This document shows, piece after piece, positions 1 through 14,876 of a DNA stretch of 14,933 nucleotides. The stretch lies in assembly GCA_007134725.1 (NCBI GenBank), contig SLKF01000284.1, positions 1 to 14,933 of the forward strand. Direction: 5' to 3'. The stretch comes from Clostridiales bacterium (lineage in GTDB: Bacteria > Bacillota > Clostridia > Peptostreptococcales > T1SED10-28). Position 1 is the first letter of the stretch, and every line of letters starts with the position of its first letter. The position numbers and the translations under genes were made by a program. The notes under the pieces are model-generated. The model was given only the letters and a program-made list of their open reading frames with translations, made no database searches and had not been told where the DNA came from.

Positions 1-733
1 AGATAACACTTAAATCATGGGATATAAAAAGATAGGTCAGGCCGAAATCCTGTTGCAATTCAATCAGCAGATTGAGTACCTGGGATTGTATTGAAACGTC
101 CAGGGCGGATACCGCCTCATCTAAGACAATCAGCTTCGGGTTTAGAATTAAGGCTCTGGCCACGCCGATCCGCTGCCGCTGTCCTCCGGAAAATTCATGG
201 GGATAACGATAAATCTGCTTTCGATTCAGGCCCACTTTTTCCATGATTTTCTCGATCAGTTGGATCCGTTCTTCCCTGGTACCGATTTTATGGGCTTTTA
301 AGGGCTCCATCAGGATATCCAGCACCTTCATTCGAGGATTCAGCGAGCTGTAGGGATCTTGAAATACAATCTGAGCGTCCTTTTTTCGGTTGATCAGCTC
401 CTGGCCCTTAATTTTTGTCCAGTTCACCCCGTTGATGATTACCTCTCCCTCGGTGGGATCCACCAAATTTAACAGCACTTTACCCATGGTGGATTTTCCG
501 CAACCGGACTCCCCTACCAGACCGAAGGTCTCTCCTTCATTGATGGATAAGCTGACGCCGTCCACGGCCTTTACCTGCCCCACCACTTTGTTTAATATCC
601 CGCCGTATACGGGAAAATGTTTTTTCACATTTTTCACTTGGACCAGGGCTTTTTTATCCATGGCATTGAAAGAGGATTTCTGGTCGTGCTTAGGATTTAC
701 AGAAATATTTTCTTCAACCATTACATTACTCAT
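1..733 (-). CDS. oppF: Peptide ABC transporter ATP-binding protein OppF (partial, C-terminus beyond window)
   Basis: Cytoplasmic ATPase of an oligopeptide/dipeptide importer; pairs with OppD to power uptake. Translating the minus strand from ATG 733 gives 244 residues with every ABC motif in order: Walker [10 protein letters not shown] (74-82), Q-loop Q125 in FQDP, signature FSGGQRQR (181-188), Walker B LIVLDEA (201-207) and H-loop H239 in ISHDL. The YGGIL...AVDGVSL stretch (43-62) is typical of OppF/DppF. The frame runs open off the window edge; about 70-90 C-terminal residues should follow. The start is supported by AGAGGTG seven bases upstream. The ATG overlaps the oppD stop by 8 nt (726-733), implying translational coupling. 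A tail of about 29 residues precedes the ATPase domain. Last visible gene of the operon. Substrate specificity cannot be told from this subunit. Confidence 0.93.
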   Translation of the reverse strand, partial: MSNVMVEENISVNPKHDQKSSFNAMDKKALVQVKNVKKHFPVYGGILNKVVGQVKAVDGVSLSINEGETFGLVGESGCGKSTMGKVLLNLVDPTEGEVIINGVNWTKIKGQELINRKKDAQIVFQDPYSSLNPRMKVLDILMEPLKAHKIGTREERIQLIEKIMEKVGLNRKQIYRYPHEFSGGQRQRIGVARALILNPKLIVLDEAVSALDVSIQSQVLNLLIELQQDFGLTYLFISHDLSVI

Positions 734-1871
734 GAAAACGCACCTCTTCTCCGTCGATCTTCGTATATAAAAAGCACCGGCAATAATGCTCTTTTTCAAT
801 TTCTAAAAATTCCGGATCCTGCTGATGACAAATCTCCATTACCTCCGCGCAGCGATCCCGAAATTTACACCCATGGGTAAAGGTTCCCGGCAGCGGTACC
901 TGCCCCGGAATAGAGGGAAGTATTCCCCGGGTTTGACCGATCTTGGGAATGGATTTCAAAAGACCCCGGGTATAGGGATGTTTGGGATTTTTGTACAGCT
1001 CATAGACATCGGCCTGCTCCACGATTTCCCCGGAATACATGACCGCCACCCGGTCACACATTTCCGCCACCACTCCCAGGTCATGGGTAATAAAAAGAAT
1101 GGAGGTATCAATTTCGTTTTTCAAGGTTCCCATCAGCTCCAGAATCTGGGCTTGGATGGTTACGTCCAGGGCCGTGGTGGGCTCATCGGCGATTAGAATG
1201 TTAGGTCCGCAGGCCAGCGCGATGGCGATCATCGCCCGTTGTCGCATGCCTCCCGAAAGCTCATGGGGATAGGCTTTATAGATCTCCTCCGGCCGGGGGA
1301 TCCGAACCTTTTTCAGCATATCCACCGCTTTGATTTTGACTTCTTTTTTCGTCAGTTTCGTATGAATAAATAGAGACTCTTCAATTTGAGCCCCGATGGT
1401 GATAACGGGATTCAGAGAGGTCATAGGCTCCTGAAAGATCATGGAAATATCATTTCCCCGGATCTTTGCCATTTGGTTTTCCGTCTTTTTTAACAGATCT
1501 TCCCCGCGATAAATAATTTCTCCCGTGGGATAATTCCCCGGAGGACTGTCAATGAGCCGCATAATCGACATGGAGGTCACGCTTTTCCCACATCCCGACT
1601 CGCCCACAAGCCCCAGGGTTTCCCCTCTTCGAATATAAAGGGACACTCCGTTTACCACCCGTACCACCCGGTCTTCACTTTTAAATTCCAGGCTGAGGTT
1701 TTTGATCTCCAGCACATTTTCAGAAGTTTGCTGATCCTTTCCCTGGATTGCCTGGCCCTTACGCTGGCCCTGATTTATCCATGCTTCCGATGCATCACCG
1801 TTTTCCCGGCGATCGATGTTATTGGTTGAATCCTCTATTGTATCCTTCGGTAATTTTGTTGTAGTTTGCAT
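726..1871 (-). CDS. oppD: Peptide ABC transporter ATP-binding protein OppD
   Basis: Second ATPase of the peptide importer, 381 residues. Motifs in order: Walker A GESGCGKS (90-97), Q-loop Q147, signature LSGGMRQR (205-212), Walker B ILIADEP (225-231), H-loop H263. The C-terminal family domain (about 290-370) has a [10 protein letters not shown] motif and cysteines C335, C341, C348 and C364. This pattern matches OppD/DppD proteins, for which an iron-sulfur cluster has been described; cluster binding here is inference. ATG 1871 has GAGGAGGG eight bases upstream. A hydrophilic tail of about 50 residues, rich in N, D, Q and K, precedes the ATPase fold, whereas most homologues start the domain within about 5-10 residues. 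Fifteen bases separate it from oppC, and its 3' end overlaps oppF by 8 nt. Confidence 0.95.
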
Positions 1872-1886: not shown

Positions 1887-3542
1887 CTAATCTTTCAGTT
1901 TCGGATCCAAGGCGTCACGAAGTCCGTCTCCCAGTAGATTAAAAGCCAGTACCGTCATGACGATGGCCAATCCCGGGAATAAGGTAGGATGGAAAACATT
2001 TCGACTGTTATCCTTCGCCGCATTCAGCATGGCTCCCCACTCCGGCGCTGTAATATCTCCACCAAGTCCCAGATAACTGAGGACCGCACCAATGATGATC
2101 GCCGTACCGATTCGCATGGTCAGATACACAATTATAACCGATAAGGTTCCCGGTAGAATATGGCGGAAAATAATAACGTAATCCTTCACTCCGATGGATT
2201 TTGCCGCCTCCACATAGGTCATGTTTTTCACCGACATGGCCGAAGAGCGAACAATCCGTAGAAAGATGGGGACCGTAAACACCGCTACGGCAAAAATGAT
2301 GTTGATGATTCCCGGTCCTAAGATGGCAATCACCGCAATGGCCAAGAGTACCCCGGGAAAGGCCAGCAGTACATCGGATGCCCGGGTAAGCAGTGAGTCG
2401 ATTCGACCTCCATAATACCCGGCGATCAATCCCAAGGTGGTCCCCAGCAGGGCTCCGAGAATGACGGAAACAAAACCGATGGTAAGGGTTTGTCGGGTTC
2501 CTACCAACACCCGGCTGAAGATGTCCCGATTCTGATGATCCGTTCCGAAAAAATGCAGCGTGGAGGGGGGTTGATGTTTGTATAAGTCCACAAGCTGGGC
2601 TTCGGTTTCCTGAAACTGAAAGGCGGTCACGATCGGTTCCGCCTGGCCGAGAGCAGTAGGGCCTACAGGAATTTGCACTACGGTGGATAGACCACCCAAA
2701 CTTACCTGAACCGTGCCCACCCCTTCCTGGGCTGCGATAATCCTACCGTCCTCTTCTATGGTTAAGATTTCTTCATCCATATTTCCAAAAATGATGCCAA
2801 GGACGCCCTCTTCTACTGTTTCCACCTGCTGACCCACAATCCGTCCTCCTGTAGTGTCCTGGCTTCCTTGGAGTTCTTCCATTTCTTCAATAACCCGGGC
2901 AATCTCTGACCGGTCTTCCAAAACTTCTCCGTCACTGAGGTGTCCTTTAATTTCCAAGGTGATTTCCTCTCCGGGGGCAAAATAATCCTTCCCGGGGGTC
3001 ACTTCCACAGCCGTAAGTATGGGACGATAAAATTGGCTTTGGGTCACCACAATCCGTAGATAATTGGTCACATTTTCATGGCTGACCGCCACAAAGGTTT
3101 CCCCTTCGTTGACCGCCGTGGCCGTGATACTATCGGCGGAGCCTCGGGCATTGACCACCCTTCGATTTCCACTGTCTACCATGGGAACCCGGGTAGCTTC
3201 CACCACACTGCCGTCACTTAAAACCCACTGATAGCCGATATTTATACGATTGTCTCCCAGCTGGTCCTGATCTTCCTGGCTGTACTGGGAAAGCACATCC
3301 ACCGTAGGGTCGAAGGGTACAATGATCGGCGCCAGGATCGCCACAACAATGATAATAGCGATGGCAAAAAAGGCAATCAAAGCCATCTTTTGCTTGGAAA
3401 ACTTCTTCACAAAATCCTTAAAGGGGGAGTAGGGCTTTTCCTTTTCTCCACCGCCATTTTCTCTATGATCATCTCCCGGAGTCGTTCTTTCTCCGGGAAG
3501 GGGGCTGACACTTTTCGCTTGTTTCTCTGATTTATTTTTCAA
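1887..3542 (-). CDS. oppC: Peptide ABC transporter permease OppC with large extracytoplasmic Ig-like insertion
   Basis: Inner permease subunit of the peptide importer. The C-terminal half (about 330-551) is a normal OppC/DppC: entry motif HFFGTDHQNRDIFSRVLVGT, several membrane segments, and the EAA loop YVEAAKSIGVKDYVIIFRHI (443-462) that docks the ATPase. The protein has 551 residues; the family usually has about 290-320. After a hydrophilic 50-residue N-tail and TM1 (about 52-75), some 250 residues (81-330) are inserted in the first outside loop. Within it, SDG, EEDGRIIAAQEGVGTVQVSL and VVQIPV resemble the strand and turn pattern of bacterial Ig-like group 2 (BIG2) domains. There may be two modules, about 100-167 and 174-293. 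The start is TTG at 3542 with AAGGAG nine bases upstream; the next in-frame Met lies at TM1, so a later start would lose the tail. The oppB stop is 16 nt upstream. Confidence 0.92.
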   Translation of the reverse strand: MKNKSEKQAKSVSPLPGERTTPGDDHRENGGGEKEKPYSPFKDFVKKFSKQKMALIAFFAIAIIIVVAILAPIIVPFDPTVDVLSQYSQEDQDQLGDNRINIGYQWVLSDGSVVEATRVPMVDSGNRRVVNARGSADSITATAVNEGETFVAVSHENVTNYLRIVVTQSQFYRPILTAVEVTPGKDYFAPGEEITLEIKGHLSDGEVLEDRSEIARVIEEMEELQGSQDTTGGRIVGQQVETVEEGVLGIIFGNMDEEILTIEEDGRIIAAQEGVGTVQVSLGGLSTVVQIPVGPTALGQAEPIVTAFQFQETEAQLVDLYKHQPPSTLHFFGTDHQNRDIFSRVLVGTRQTLTIGFVSVILGALLGTTLGLIAGYYGGRIDSLLTRASDVLLAFPGVLLAIAVIAILGPGIINIIFAVAVFTVPIFLRIVRSSAMSVKNMTYVEAAKSIGVKDYVIIFRHILPGTLSVIIVYLTMRIGTAIIIGAVLSYLGLGGDITAPEWGAMLNAAKDNSRNVFHPTLFPGLAIVMTVLAFNLLGDGLRDALDPKLKD

Positions 3543-3558
3543 GGCTTTGCACTCCTTT

Positions 3559-4479
3559 CTAGCTGTACCGTATTTGTGGATTCAGATAAGCGTAGGTTAA
3601 ATCCACCAAAAGATTTACCCCTAAAAACTGTAGGGAAAACAGCATAATCAAGGCCTGCACCACGGGATAATCCCGATTGATGATGCCGTCGATCAAATAA
3701 CTGCCCAGCCCCGGCCAGGAAAACACGGTTTCAATGGCAATGGCGCCGCCGATCAGAAACCCGAACTGGAGTCCCGTCATGGTTACTACGGGAATCAGGG
3801 CATTGCGAAGGGCGTGCTTAAAGATTACGTTACGCCGAATCTGTCCTTTTGCCCGGGCGGTTCGGATATAGTCCTCACCCAGGGTTTCCAGTAAACTGGA
3901 GCGGGTAAATCTTGCCACAATGGCCGCCACGGTGGCTCCCAGTACAAAGGCGGGCATGATCAAATGCCTTATGCCGCCTATGCCGCTGGTGGGAAGCCAA
4001 CCCAGGCGTACCGCAAACACCTGCATCAACAGGAGTCCCAGCCAAAAAGAAGGAATGGAGATACTGGCTACGGATAAGGTCATTACCACCCGATCCAGCA
4101 GGGAGTTTCTTTTTACCGCGGAAATAATCCCCACCACCAATCCCGCCAAGGTTGCCCAAATCATACTGACCGAGGCCAGCACAAAGGTATTGATAAAGCG
4201 CCTGCCGATTTCGCTGGATACATTGGCCCGGGTCCGATAGGACACCCCAAAATCTCCCCGGACAACATTTCCCATATAGCGCACATACTGCACCGGCAGG
4301 GGATCATTAAAGCCTTCCCGTTCCCGCAGCTGCTGATAGGTATCCTGGTCGATTTCAATACCGTACATAATTCGTATGGGATCTCCCGGAGTTAAATGAA
4401 CAAATAAAAATGCCAAAATCGATACAATCAGGAGAATCGGTATCATTTGTAGCAGTCTTCGAACAATATAGGTTGCCAT
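3559..4479 (-). CDS. oppB: Peptide ABC transporter permease OppB
   Basis: Membrane permease that pairs with OppC to form the import channel. It has 306 residues, normal for OppB/DppB. TM1 is at about 8-29, followed by the family motif HLTPGDPIRIMYG (28-40), the loop DPLPVQYVRYMGNVVRGDFGVS (59-80), further membrane segments, and the EAA loop GEDYIRTARAKGQIRRNVIF (201-220) for ATPase contact. The conserved end SWPGLGSYLIDGIINRDYPVVQ (254-275) is present. ATG 4479 has AGAGGTGG six bases upstream. It is separated from the binding-protein gene by 368 bp of repeat-rich spacer, but oppC follows after only 16 nt. Higher expression of the binding protein than of the channel is common for such operons and would fit this spacing; that is inference. 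Confidence 0.95.
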   Translation of the reverse strand: MATYIVRRLLQMIPILLIVSILAFLFVHLTPGDPIRIMYGIEIDQDTYQQLREREGFNDPLPVQYVRYMGNVVRGDFGVSYRTRANVSSEIGRRFINTFVLASVSMIWATLAGLVVGIISAVKRNSLLDRVVMTLSVASISIPSFWLGLLLMQVFAVRLGWLPTSGIGGIRHLIMPAFVLGATVAAIVARFTRSSLLETLGEDYIRTARAKGQIRRNVIFKHALRNALIPVVTMTGLQFGFLIGGAIAIETVFSWPGLGSYLIDGIINRDYPVVQALIMLFSLQFLGVNLLVDLTYAYLNPQIRYS

Positions 4480-4847: not shown

Positions 4848-6494
4848 TTATTGATTAATAAAATGTACACCGTTCATATCCACCGAGCCGTCCTGCATGA
4901 TATAGATTCCGCCGACTTCTGTTCGTTGTGCCGCTACGGCGTCCACCACATGTAAGAACACCCATGGAGCGTCTTGATAAATAATTTCCTGAGCTTGATG
5001 ATACAGTTCTAAACGTTCTTCTTCATTGGGATTTTCCAAGGCATCGTTTAGCAATTGATCCACTTCTTCATTAATATAAAAACCCGAGTTGTTATAGTTT
5101 GGTGGTACACGGTCAGATGCAAAGTTTGGTCTAAGACCCCAATCCGCTTCCCCGGTTCCCGGAGACCATCGACCGATCCATAAATCCGTACCGTCATTGT
5201 TATCCAGCATATCAAACAGGGTTCCACTCTCATAAGCCTGTACATCTACTTCGATACCGATTTCCCGAAGCTGCATGGCTACAAATTCAGCAATAGCCGT
5301 AAACTCTGTGGAGTTTCGGGTCCAAAGAGTGGCTTCAAAACCATCTTCCATACCGGCTTCCGCCATTAAGTCCAAAGCGCCGTCGATATCATATTCGTAT
5401 ACTGCCTGGGGACTGTAACCATATACCGGAGGCGCGATTGGAGAATCCGCTACCCGACCAAATCCGTCCACTACTTGGGCGATCAATTGATCTTTATCCA
5501 CTCCGTGGTTCATGGCACGACGAACATTTTCATCCTGATACTTCTCTTCCTGAAGATTCATTCCAATATAAAACACATTCATGGAAGGACCGGAAAACAC
5601 ATTAACGTATTCTTCGTCCATCAAACTGTCCGCTTCTCCTGTTGGCAGGGTGTCCACAAAATGAACTTCTCCTGTTTTCAGTTGATTTACCCGGGTGCTG
5701 GCTTCCTGAACCGAAGTAAACCGAATACTTTCCACCTGGGCCATATGATCCTGATCCCAGTAATCTTCATTTTTCTCTACTACCACATGCTGACCGTCTA
5801 ACCATTCCACATATCGGAAAGGTCCGGTTCCTATGGCATTTCGATCCAGATTATAGTCAGGATCCTCCATTTTTTTCTCCAACTCGTCCAAAGACTTCAT
5901 TCCCGCAGTAGGATGGGCTAAATAAGAAGCCATGGAAGCATTGGGCTCGGAAGCATGGATGATGATCTCAAATTCATCCGCCACTTCCACTTCCTCAATA
6001 AAGTTAAAGAAACTTCGTCTGGCCAAACCGTTGTCTTCATCCAGAACAAAGTCGAAATTTGCCTTTACCACTTCCGCATTAAACTCGGTACCGTCATGGA
6101 AGTTGATTCCTTCCCGAAGGGTAAACCGAAGTTCCGTAGCATCATCATTATACTCATAGGATTCTGATAGATAGGGAACAATATCCAGATTCTCGTCAAA
6201 TCGCAGCAAACCTTCAAACATGGTTTTTTGCACGGAGGTAGATACTCCGTCGGTGGAGTTGAAAGGATCCAAAGAGGTAGGCTCCGCCTCCAGGGCTACT
6301 ACGATCTCATCTCCCGCTTCGATCATGCCGCTTTCATCTTCTCCCTCTTCTTCTTCTTCGACGGGATCATCGGTACCTTCGGTTTCTTCCCCGTTTTCTT
6401 CATCCACAGGGTCTTCCACGTCACTACAGGCACTTACAAAAACCAGCATCGTTACCAACAACAATACAAACAATAGCATCTTTTTCTTCTTCAA
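4848..6494 (-). CDS. Peptide/glutathione-type ABC transporter substrate-binding lipoprotein (SBP family 5)
   Basis: Extracytoplasmic receptor that delivers peptides, or glutathione-like ligands, to OppBCDF. From the TTG at 6494 it has 548 residues: KKKK and a hydrophobic helix, then lipobox VSAC with the lipidated Cys at 23. An acidic linker follows (about 24-60, mostly E and D), then the mature family-5 fold beginning EIVVALEAEPTSLDPFNSTD. Motifs such as LREGINFHDGTEFNAE, NAIGTGPFRY and GEADWGLRPNFASDRVPPNY resemble the GsiB/DppA group more than classical OppA; this is judged from memory, not by a search. AAGGAGAGG lies seven bases before the TTG. An upstream in-frame ATG at 6623 would add 43 residues, has no ribosome binding site and would bury the signal peptide, so it is rejected. 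First gene of the importer operon, behind a sigma-54 promoter. Confidence 0.93.
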   Translation of the reverse strand: MKKKKMLLFVLLLVTMLVFVSACSDVEDPVDEENGEETEGTDDPVEEEEEGEDESGMIEAGDEIVVALEAEPTSLDPFNSTDGVSTSVQKTMFEGLLRFDENLDIVPYLSESYEYNDDATELRFTLREGINFHDGTEFNAEVVKANFDFVLDEDNGLARRSFFNFIEEVEVADEFEIIIHASEPNASMASYLAHPTAGMKSLDELEKKMEDPDYNLDRNAIGTGPFRYVEWLDGQHVVVEKNEDYWDQDHMAQVESIRFTSVQEASTRVNQLKTGEVHFVDTLPTGEADSLMDEEYVNVFSGPSMNVFYIGMNLQEEKYQDENVRRAMNHGVDKDQLIAQVVDGFGRVADSPIAPPVYGYSPQAVYEYDIDGALDLMAEAGMEDGFEATLWTRNSTEFTAIAEFVAMQLREIGIEVDVQAYESGTLFDMLDNNDGTDLWIGRWSPGTGEADWGLRPNFASDRVPPNYNNSGFYINEEVDQLLNDALENPNEEERLELYHQAQEIIYQDAPWVFLHVVDAVAAQRTEVGGIYIMQDGSVDMNGVHFINQ

Positions 6495-6651
6495 CGTTAT
6501 TCCTCTCCTTCTTAAAGATATTTTAGGTTTTTTAGGTAACCCGAAACCTGAAACCTGATCCGCTGTGGGTTCTAAGAGCTGAAAACCATTGTTTTCAACG
6601 TTCTTCAGCCTTTGTTGAACCAAGCGGTGTTTCTTAACACCTTACTTATAT
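6495..6651 (-). other. 5' untranslated leader of the binding-protein operon
   Basis: About 145 nt separate the predicted sigma-54 start site (near 6640) from the TTG start. The stretch contains an imperfect hairpin at 6525-6556 (AGGTT and AGGT pairing with ACCT and AACCT), just upstream of the ribosome binding site at 6502-6510. No known riboswitch motif is recognised. Confidence 0.4.
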
Positions 6652-13516: not shown

Positions 13517-13545
13517 ATTATAACCTATGGGTTACAGAAAATCCA
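13517..13545 (-). promoter_or_regulatory. Candidate promoter for the small RNA
   Basis: A perfect TATAAT (13522-13517) overlaps the transglutaminase stop codon. At 17 bp upstream lies TGGATT, a poor -35 (3/6), and there is no TG extension. Transcription would begin near 13510, just before the first RNA hairpin. Confidence 0.4.
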
Positions 13546-14876
13546 CCGGAATTTTTTATCATGTCCACCGATTGTCCCCGTTGAACCAGGGAAGCGTCGT
13601 GAGTGGTATCAATGATTACCCATCGATCCTCATCGGCTATATACACTTCGTTCCAGGCATGATATACTGCACCATTTCCAATGGCCTGAGAATACCCCTT
13701 TACCATTCGGGTCGGGATTCCCTGACTTCGAAGCATGGCTGCAAAAAGGGAAGCATAGTCATAGCAAATTCCCTTATTGCTACTGAAGGTATTGTTGATA
13801 TTCGGTAGATAAAATACATTTAACTGATCCACTTTATCATGATCATATTTTACATTGCGCACCATATAATTATATACGCCCCGTACTTTTTCCCGGTCCG
13901 AAGACATGCCTGCAGTTAATTGAGAAGCTTTTTGAATTGCAGGATCCGATGAACTCCAATTGATCTCCTGGATGGAATTTAAGTACACCGCGTGCTTTTG
14001 TTGGCTTTTTAAGGTTACTTCCTGACGATACACCTCTCGGTAGCTGTTTCCTTCGGTGTTTTCCATGATCCGTACCAGATAGGTTCCGTCTCCCCGTTGT
14101 AAGGGATAGGTTGCTACGGCATTGGCGGTTTTGGATCCGTCATGAAGATTGTAGGCGGAACGTTCTCCACCTTTTTCAACCAGTACCCGCAGTCGCTTTT
14201 GAGGCGCATTGGGATATACTACGGTTACGGCGCCTTGATCATTATGATAAATCCCTATGCGATCCATGCTGTAAGAGGGTACATTGGGGGATCTCGGCGG
14301 TGTTGCGGCTACTGTTGTGATCTCAGCGGTGCTTTTGCTCTCGCCACTGCTTTTCCCAGCACTGGCAGGTTCGCTATTTGTTGAAGCCTTGGATGCGGTG
14401 CTGCTTGGAGCACTTGCTGCCTTTTCTTCCTTGGCCGCTGCTGCTTTTTCAGCTTCTTCTTCCGCTTCGGCTTGTTTTTCCGTCTCGGCTATGGCTTCTT
14501 TCTCTGCTTTGGCTTCCGCTTCTTTTTTCGCTTCCGCTTCTTTCTCGGCTTGAGCTATCCGAGTTTCCCGCGCTTCTTTACCGGGATCCAGACTCTCAAA
14601 GGTGTGCCAATTTCCATAATCATCCTCAATGAATCTGATCTGATACTGGTCGATTATAATGATTCCGTTCTTCAAGGTAGGGCCTTCGGTCTCTTTTTTT
14701 GAATTATCCCTTGCTTTTTCTACTGCTATGGATCCTGCTGCTGAAAGATTTTCCAATGCATCAGCTTCCGGAATTCCCGAAGGAATTTTTTCTGTATCTT
14801 TATTATTGTTTGCGAATAATAGTGTGGTTGTCGTCAATAACAGGGCAAATACCAATAAAATCATTACTTTTTTCAT
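13518..14876 (-). CDS. Secreted transglutaminase-like (cysteine protease fold) protein under c-di-GMP riboswitch
   Basis: Probable extracytoplasmic protein of 452 residues. A signal peptide with KK, a hydrophobic core and a likely cut after LLFA (about 22) is followed by a globular segment (about 60-95). Next is an E/K/A-rich region (about 100-155), probably a long helix or coiled coil, then a Ser/Thr/Ala/Pro-rich linker (155-200), a beta-rich domain (about 203-295), and a C-terminal transglutaminase-like domain. The Cys-His-Asp triad is complete: C371 in KGICYDYASLFAAMLRSQG, H406 in YHAWNEV and D423 in VIIDTTHD. Such domains act as proteases, peptidases or crosslinkers, and the substrate is unknown. 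ATG 14876 has AAAGGAGGAG seven bases upstream, directly after a c-di-GMP-I riboswitch, which points to a cell-surface or lifestyle-switch role. No lipobox or sortase motif is seen. Confidence 0.88.
   Translation of the reverse strand: MKKVMILLVFALLLTTTTLLFANNNKDTEKIPSGIPEADALENLSAAGSIAVEKARDNSKKETEGPTLKNGIIIIDQYQIRFIEDDYGNWHTFESLDPGKEARETRIAQAEKEAEAKKEAEAKAEKEAIAETEKQAEAEEEAEKAAAAKEEKAASAPSSTASKASTNSEPASAGKSSGESKSTAEITTVAATPPRSPNVPSYSMDRIGIYHNDQGAVTVVYPNAPQKRLRVLVEKGGERSAYNLHDGSKTANAVATYPLQRGDGTYLVRIMENTEGNSYREVYRQEVTLKSQQKHAVYLNSIQEINWSSSDPAIQKASQLTAGMSSDREKVRGVYNYMVRNVKYDHDKVDQLNVFYLPNINNTFSSNKGICYDYASLFAAMLRSQGIPTRMVKGYSQAIGNGAVYHAWNEVYIADEDRWVIIDTTHDASLVQRGQSVDMIKNSGGFSVTHRL

Follow-up and report, generated by a model that had tools for sequence, protein, structure and literature searches.

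A long OppC permease loop with a bacterial Ig-like domain in a clostridial opp operon

Opp and Dpp importers are textbook machines. Among type I importers, a folded outside region in one permease subunit is exemplified by the P2 region of MalF (about 180 residues), which has an Ig-like fold and sits between TM3 and TM4. The accessible text of PMC3150292 describes contacts of MalF-P2 (aa 91-271) with the binding protein MalE. In Escherichia coli Dpp, according to the accessible part of PMC12136057, the TM1-TM2 region of DppB forms a scoop motif (about 30 residues, helix-loop-helix) that itself contacts the binding protein by entering the cleft of DppA; the TM1-TM2 regions of DppB and DppC are not alike. 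The accessible portion of PMC11466899, which covers models of Bacillus subtilis ABC transporters, mentions an extracellular domain for none of OppC, AppC, and DppC. All OppC/DppC chains found by a PDB sequence search (five distinct sequences) comprise 287-302 residues, and in the open-access papers searched, we found no account of an Ig-like domain in OppC or of an OppC with RCC1. Importer permeases with an outside domain of Ig-like fold are already known in kind from MalF-P2; such a domain would be new in OppC.

Here, we analyze an opp operon in a window (the whole stretch of DNA under study, 14,933 nucleotides) in which OppC has a loop enlarged by about 235 residues. Like P2, this loop would be a folded outside region belonging to a single permease subunit in an importer of type I, but it is inserted between TM1 and the FGTD motif in another permease family; contact with the binding protein, established for P2, may by analogy also occur in OppC. 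The loop resembles the DppB scoop in location, lying outside between TM1 and TM2 of a permease subunit, and both belong to the same broad importer family, but it is far larger, Ig-like, and belongs to the C rather than the B subunit, whereas OppB in the window retains its ordinary length.

The opp operon and its oppC gene

The window encodes OppA, OppB, OppC, and OppD and, at its edge, part of OppF, the latter recognized by likeness only; this gene set defines an opp operon (Table 1). In OppC, matches to OppC_N (PF12911, aa 39-85, 43.8 bits against a cut-off of 23.9) and BPD_transp_1 (PF00528, aa 367-550, 105.9 bits against 26.4) flank the insert, one on each side, and their succession identifies an OppC/DppC-type permease with the normal C-terminal half that the preliminary description had assigned to it. 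The same description reported a 551-residue OppC in one open frame with an insert between TM1 and the HFFGTD motif, and this is what we found: the gene starts with TTG and runs without break, hydropathy places TM1 at about aa 53-71, inside the OppC_N match, and the motif occupies aa 330-335. The loop from TM1 to FGTD, as delimited by hydropathy, comprises 261 residues, compared with 23-28 residues in 27 of 47 OppC proteins measured in the same way, which leaves a net insert of about 235 residues.

Table 1. Features of the opp operon in the window
Feature	Positions	Strand	Residues	Remarks
oppF (partial)	1..724	-		ATPase; cut by window end; likeness to oppF of the sister locus L046
oppD	726..1871	-		ATPase
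oppC	1887..3542	-	551 aa	permease carrying the ectodomain insert; coordinates include the stop codon; one open frame
OppC permease core	1890..2564	-	aa 327-551	contains BPD_transp_1
Exit stalk	2553..2597	-	aa 316-330	QLVDLYKHQPPSTLH; 11/15 identical to G530
Ectodomain insert	2565..3305	-	aa 80-326	acidic
Distal module D2	2664..3023	-	aa 174-293	bacterial Ig-like (BIG2-type)
Proximal module D1	3042..3245	-	aa 100-167	37/68 identical to G530
OppC TM1	3330..3386	-	aa 53-71	hydropathy; inside OppC_N match
AAAGGAG	3552..3558	-		putative Shine-Dalgarno-like element; ends 9 nt before oppC TTG
oppB	3559..4479	-	306 aa	collinear with OppB of relatives over its full length
oppA	4848..6623	-		substrate-binding lipoprotein; SBP_bac_5 (Pfam)

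The draft genome that contains the window is fragmented (308 contigs, 79.87% complete), which might raise the suspicion of an assembly join or a frameshift. Such an artefact is excluded because a sister metagenome-assembled genome (MAG) shows the same OppC architecture, as does the one-contig genome G530, which belongs to another class. The sister OppC (G004:C8, locus L046, PWEO01000066.1, Clostridiaceae T1Sed10_77m) comprises 551 aa with 89% identity to that of the window, and the G530 protein (503 aa, ATG start) is 58% identical over 521 columns and carries an insert architecture identical in kind. Furthermore, comparison of the insert between the window and the sister shows 60.5 nonsynonymous and 99.5 synonymous differences, which corresponds to a dN/dS of 0.107.

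The best-scoring named NCBIfam models for OppC, OppB, and OppA were those of the Gsi system, all below cut-off (GsiD, 352.6 against 484; GsiC, 405.6 against 463; GsiB, 327 against 594, respectively), and the equivalog cut-offs of NCBIfam thus gave no assignment to the GsiBCD glutathione importer. OppB also scored 351.0 with Opp2B (nickel ABC transporter permease), one bit over the cut-off of 350; OppC reached 243.9 of the 300 required for Opp2C, and OppA stayed under the cut-offs of the nickel models. Directly downstream of the sister's opp operon lies an isoaspartyl dipeptidase fragment (L046:7702-8334, plus strand; 329.4 bits over 212 of 389 positions, cut-off 331.25), which fits peptide uptake and suggests aspartyl-type peptides as a possible substrate. 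An M55 D-aminopeptidase-like gene (L076:12450-13379, minus strand) is located near the opp operon of G530; the DppA-type NCBIfam model scored 52 bits with it, against a cut-off of 430. In OppA of the window, the cysteine is followed by a long linker of strongly acidic character, and the linker of G530 OppA is much shorter, so that OppA shows no obvious feature that varies with the insert. At the far end of the window (13518-14876, minus strand), a transglutaminase-like protein has a long Ala/Glu-rich stretch ahead of its catalytic domain.

Modules and fold of the insert

Judging from the topology of the family, the insert would lie outside the cell. It is acidic, with 41 D+E, 14 K+R, and no Cys (counted over aa 79-331), and appears to consist of two modules, D1 and D2, followed by the exit stalk. 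The repeated SDG turns noticed previously are two in number (aa 109-111 and 203-205), and the DGRIIAAQEGVGTVQV stretch cited along with them corresponds to aa 265-280. Within D2, aa ~210-249 form an acidic insertion that is helical.

Structure prediction for the insert alone yielded a usable model of D2 with an Ig-like beta fold, for which the best fold match was an Ig-like segment of LigA. Other fold or sequence matches included LigB and the S-layer proteins SbsC, EA1, and Sap, and the match lists also contained Ig-like domains of nuclear-pore, phage, glycosidase, and complement proteins. The Big-like Pfam family PF22359 exceeded its cut-off of 27 in the G530 homologue only (33.4, and 38.6 in a second scan) and scored below it in OppC of the window (16-21.3) and of the sister (17.7-23.4); Big_2 (PF02368) was under its cut-off of 22.8 in G530 OppC (12.3-13.9). 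By its fold, D2 is a bacterial Ig-like domain of the BIG2 type. It shares fold and weak sequence likeness with the BIG2-type domains of LigA/LigB and SbsC, but these are parts of surface or S-layer proteins, whereas D2 is part of a permease loop.

D1 showed no Pfam Ig match at E up to 10 in either the window or G530 protein, the sub-cut-off Pfam matches being Inhibitor_I42 (14 bits, window) and DUF7884 (15.4 bits, G530), and its block means of pLDDT in the model of the insert were 26-39. A weak self-match between aa ~142-181 and aa ~269-310 had an E value of 0.015 and a probability of 2.9%, and comparison of D1 and D2 as separate profiles gave a probability of 0.5%. A prediction for full-length OppC from a two-row alignment had a mean pLDDT of 35.5 and was left unused. 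The preliminary description of the whole insert as an Ig-like ectodomain is partly supported: it holds for D2, through the LigA match and PF22359 in G530, and D1 lacks a Pfam Ig match.

The insert is under purifying selection. Its dN/dS exceeds that of the permease core between the same two genomes (0.029), although both ratios are rough because dS is 1.08 for the insert and 0.66 for the core. Between the window and G530, 83 of 249 columns are identical in the insert versus 193 of 225 in the core. Conservation differs between the modules, with 54% identity in D1 and only 28% (29/102) in D2. In scans of G000, G004, and G530 with PF02368 and PF22359, we did not identify a donor gene for the Ig domain: PF02368 had no match in G000 and G004 and four matches in other frames of G530, and PF22359 matched nothing but the OppC insert in G000 and G004, with one weak match besides the insert in G530.

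Insert-bearing relatives and possible roles of the ectodomain

Among 297 genomes of the order, the insert is present in OppC of two, the window's own genome and that of the sister, and when 398 genomes from the phylum were scanned with a two-row insert profile, it matched two, that of the window and G530 (the sister is absent from that listing); both sets are draws from larger groups, and these counts do not imply absence elsewhere. At E 0.01, four of the 297 genomes gave a match, and the two marginal ones, G267 and G269 (E about 0.007), turned out to contain kinase-like frames with BIG-like ends (L044, L045), not OppC. No insert match was detected in three genomes of the same genus, G001 (98% complete), G002 (100%), and G003 (63%). 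In two further sets, the 13 genomes of the class to which G530 belongs and 61 genomes around G530, the only insert match is G530 itself. A scan of contigs used two peptide patterns derived from the window/sister pair, which inserts as distant as that of G530 would escape.

Each of the three operons found with the insert is an opp operon. A tree built from 47 OppC cores unites the window, sister, and G530 proteins in one clade with 100/100 support; several rows are on very long branches, and their placement is unsure. The remaining subunits follow the same pattern. The window proteins are 57% (OppA), 71% (OppB), and 67% (OppD) identical to those of G530, compared with 37%, 55%, and 57% for G015, an insert-less genome of the same order; for OppF, taken from the sister, the respective values are 70% and 58%. 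For the OppC core, the G015 value is 63% over 226 residues. Because the Opp proteins of G530, from another class, are closer than those of G015, this comparison, which involves G015 as the single insert-less comparator, suggests that the opp operon moved horizontally between distant lineages.

We favor the possibility, with a probability of about 0.42 for the reading as a whole, that the ectodomain is a docking arm for OppA. On this reading, the importer is a Gsi/Dpp-like one of type I, and the TM1-TM2 outside loop of its OppC has grown into the two-module structure. The ectodomain would stand beside the docking face for OppA on OppB/OppC, where the better-conserved D1 could contact OppA and D2 could serve as a strut, either holding the lipoprotein close to the entrance or setting its position, in a manner similar to the action of P2 in MalF. 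The insert would have been gained once in the opp lineage and now resides in two distantly related lineages, probably through horizontal transfer of the operon. Since OppB aligns collinearly with its relatives along all 306 residues, the OppC ectodomain is an addition, with the scoop region of OppB apparently kept.

Closeness to OppA, contact with it, and an effect on transport would follow from position and precedent, that is, from the place of the loop and from the DppB scoop and MalF-P2. We also counted in favor of the docking arm the conservation of D1 at about the level of OppA (54% versus 57% between the window and G530), the purifying selection on the insert, and the similarity of the window, sister, and G530 operons in all subunits, greater than with G015; the joint clade of the three OppC cores argues both for this role and for a single gain. 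Rapid divergence of the insert relative to the core was counted against it, since such divergence is as compatible with a spacer as with a docking arm. Also counted against it were the low pLDDT of D1, the difference in OppA linker length between the window and G530, and the score of OppB with the nickel model Opp2B.

A different proposal is that the Ig-like ectodomain reaches into the envelope and anchors the importer, or sets its distance, at the wall or surface layer. The S-layer proteins and LigA/LigB among the D2 matches point in this direction, but the same lists equally hold Ig-like domains from the nuclear pore, phages, glycosidases, and complement, and a fold in common says nothing of function; moreover, the Pfam scans of the window and G530 proteins listed no wall-binding module, and the ectodomain would be short against a thick wall. 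We regard anchoring as unlikely. Quite unlikely, too, is an acidic outer cap without a specific partner, selected in a salty alkaline niche because it stabilizes the outer face. The excess of D+E over K+R would agree with such a cap, as would the probable origin of the sister MAG: its code, T1Sed10, matches T1Sed, which the accessible text of PMC6146748 gives as the dataset of a soda-lake sediment study, and if the code is the link, the habitat is likely salty and alkaline. Against the cap stand the conservation of D1 at 37 of 68 positions and the three genomes of the same genus that show no insert match. Finally, the ectodomain, presumably close to the entrance, might bind the substrate alone and hand it over to the pore or to OppA. 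This appears improbable given that no binding motif was recognized in the insert and that all three insert-bearing operons have kept an OppA gene, and the peptidase genes near the sister and G530 operons speak only for a peptide substrate.

Loop domains across OppC proteins

The preliminary description held that known OppC/DppC proteins have only a short loop at this site, which does not apply to the proteins that we measured: the TM1-to-FGTD loop is at least 90 residues long in 18 of the 47 OppC proteins, from 16 genomes, a proportion that is not a natural frequency given that the sample is enriched for long frames. The set comprised the best matches of single genomes, most of the long open frames retrieved from among those listed, and G530; core matches not exceeding 60 bits, those covering fewer than 197 core positions, and duplicate core sequences were dropped before counting. 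This core rule removed most frames of ~600-860 residues, in which the permease core is N-terminal, with L060 kept among the 47.

With the sister's loop omitted, the 17 long loops fall into at least five groups without cross-matches (BLASTP, E 0.01): the Ig-like loops, RCC1-like loops (L040, L058), a type of 90-150 residues, to which the shortest members (L055, L057) are attached by short matches only, and the single loops of L042 and L052. On the OppC core tree, the presence of a loop of at least 90 residues requires seven changes (gains or losses), of which at least four are forced by starred branches.

Like the window protein, the RCC1-loop OppC proteins of L040 and L058 have their insertion at the same site (loops of 303 and 309 residues versus 261), but they contain RCC1_2 repeats (119.3 and 87.3 bits, cut-off 22, in a Pfam run on these two), belong to another OppC clade, and were seen in family f2 only. 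RCC1_2 repeats are not listed by Pfam for the Ig-like window OppC.

The sequences suggest that importers of this kind acquire outer attachments at the OppC loop. More broadly, the TM1-TM2 loop of OppC might be a modular port that gained unrelated folded ectodomains several times, each a lineage-specific docking or gating arm adapting one pore, an idea to which we give slightly less than even odds. Such arms (BIG2-type Ig, RCC1-like propeller, the 90-150-residue domain common in the order, and others) could, on this still tentative view, fit a conserved pore to differing binding proteins or envelopes. If true, repeated domain insertion would represent a receptor-handling layer in peptide import that is not visible in the PDB structures of OppC/DppC chains retrieved, and deletion and domain-swap tests could address how lipoprotein receptors stay at the permease.

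The RCC1-like propeller OppC of ~610 aa (L040:2471-4300, plus strand; L058:989-2818, plus strand; loci L077-L087) gave matches in 10 of the 297 genomes of the order, all in family f2 and in five genera; the open frames are 591-623 aa long in nine of these genomes and lie on two contigs in the tenth. Nine genomes (loci L056, L050, L054, L053, L032, L051, L048, L027, and L049) have in common a loop domain of 104-147 residues, without a Pfam match in the three proteins scanned (L056, L048, L049). The loops of L042 (2504-3868, plus strand; 197 residues) and L052 (1657-2841, plus strand; 117 residues) have no BLASTP match to other loops. A 543-aa frame in L039 (2596-4224, plus strand) combines a short-loop OppC core (aa 56-279) with, as we read it, a following OppD-like ATPase.
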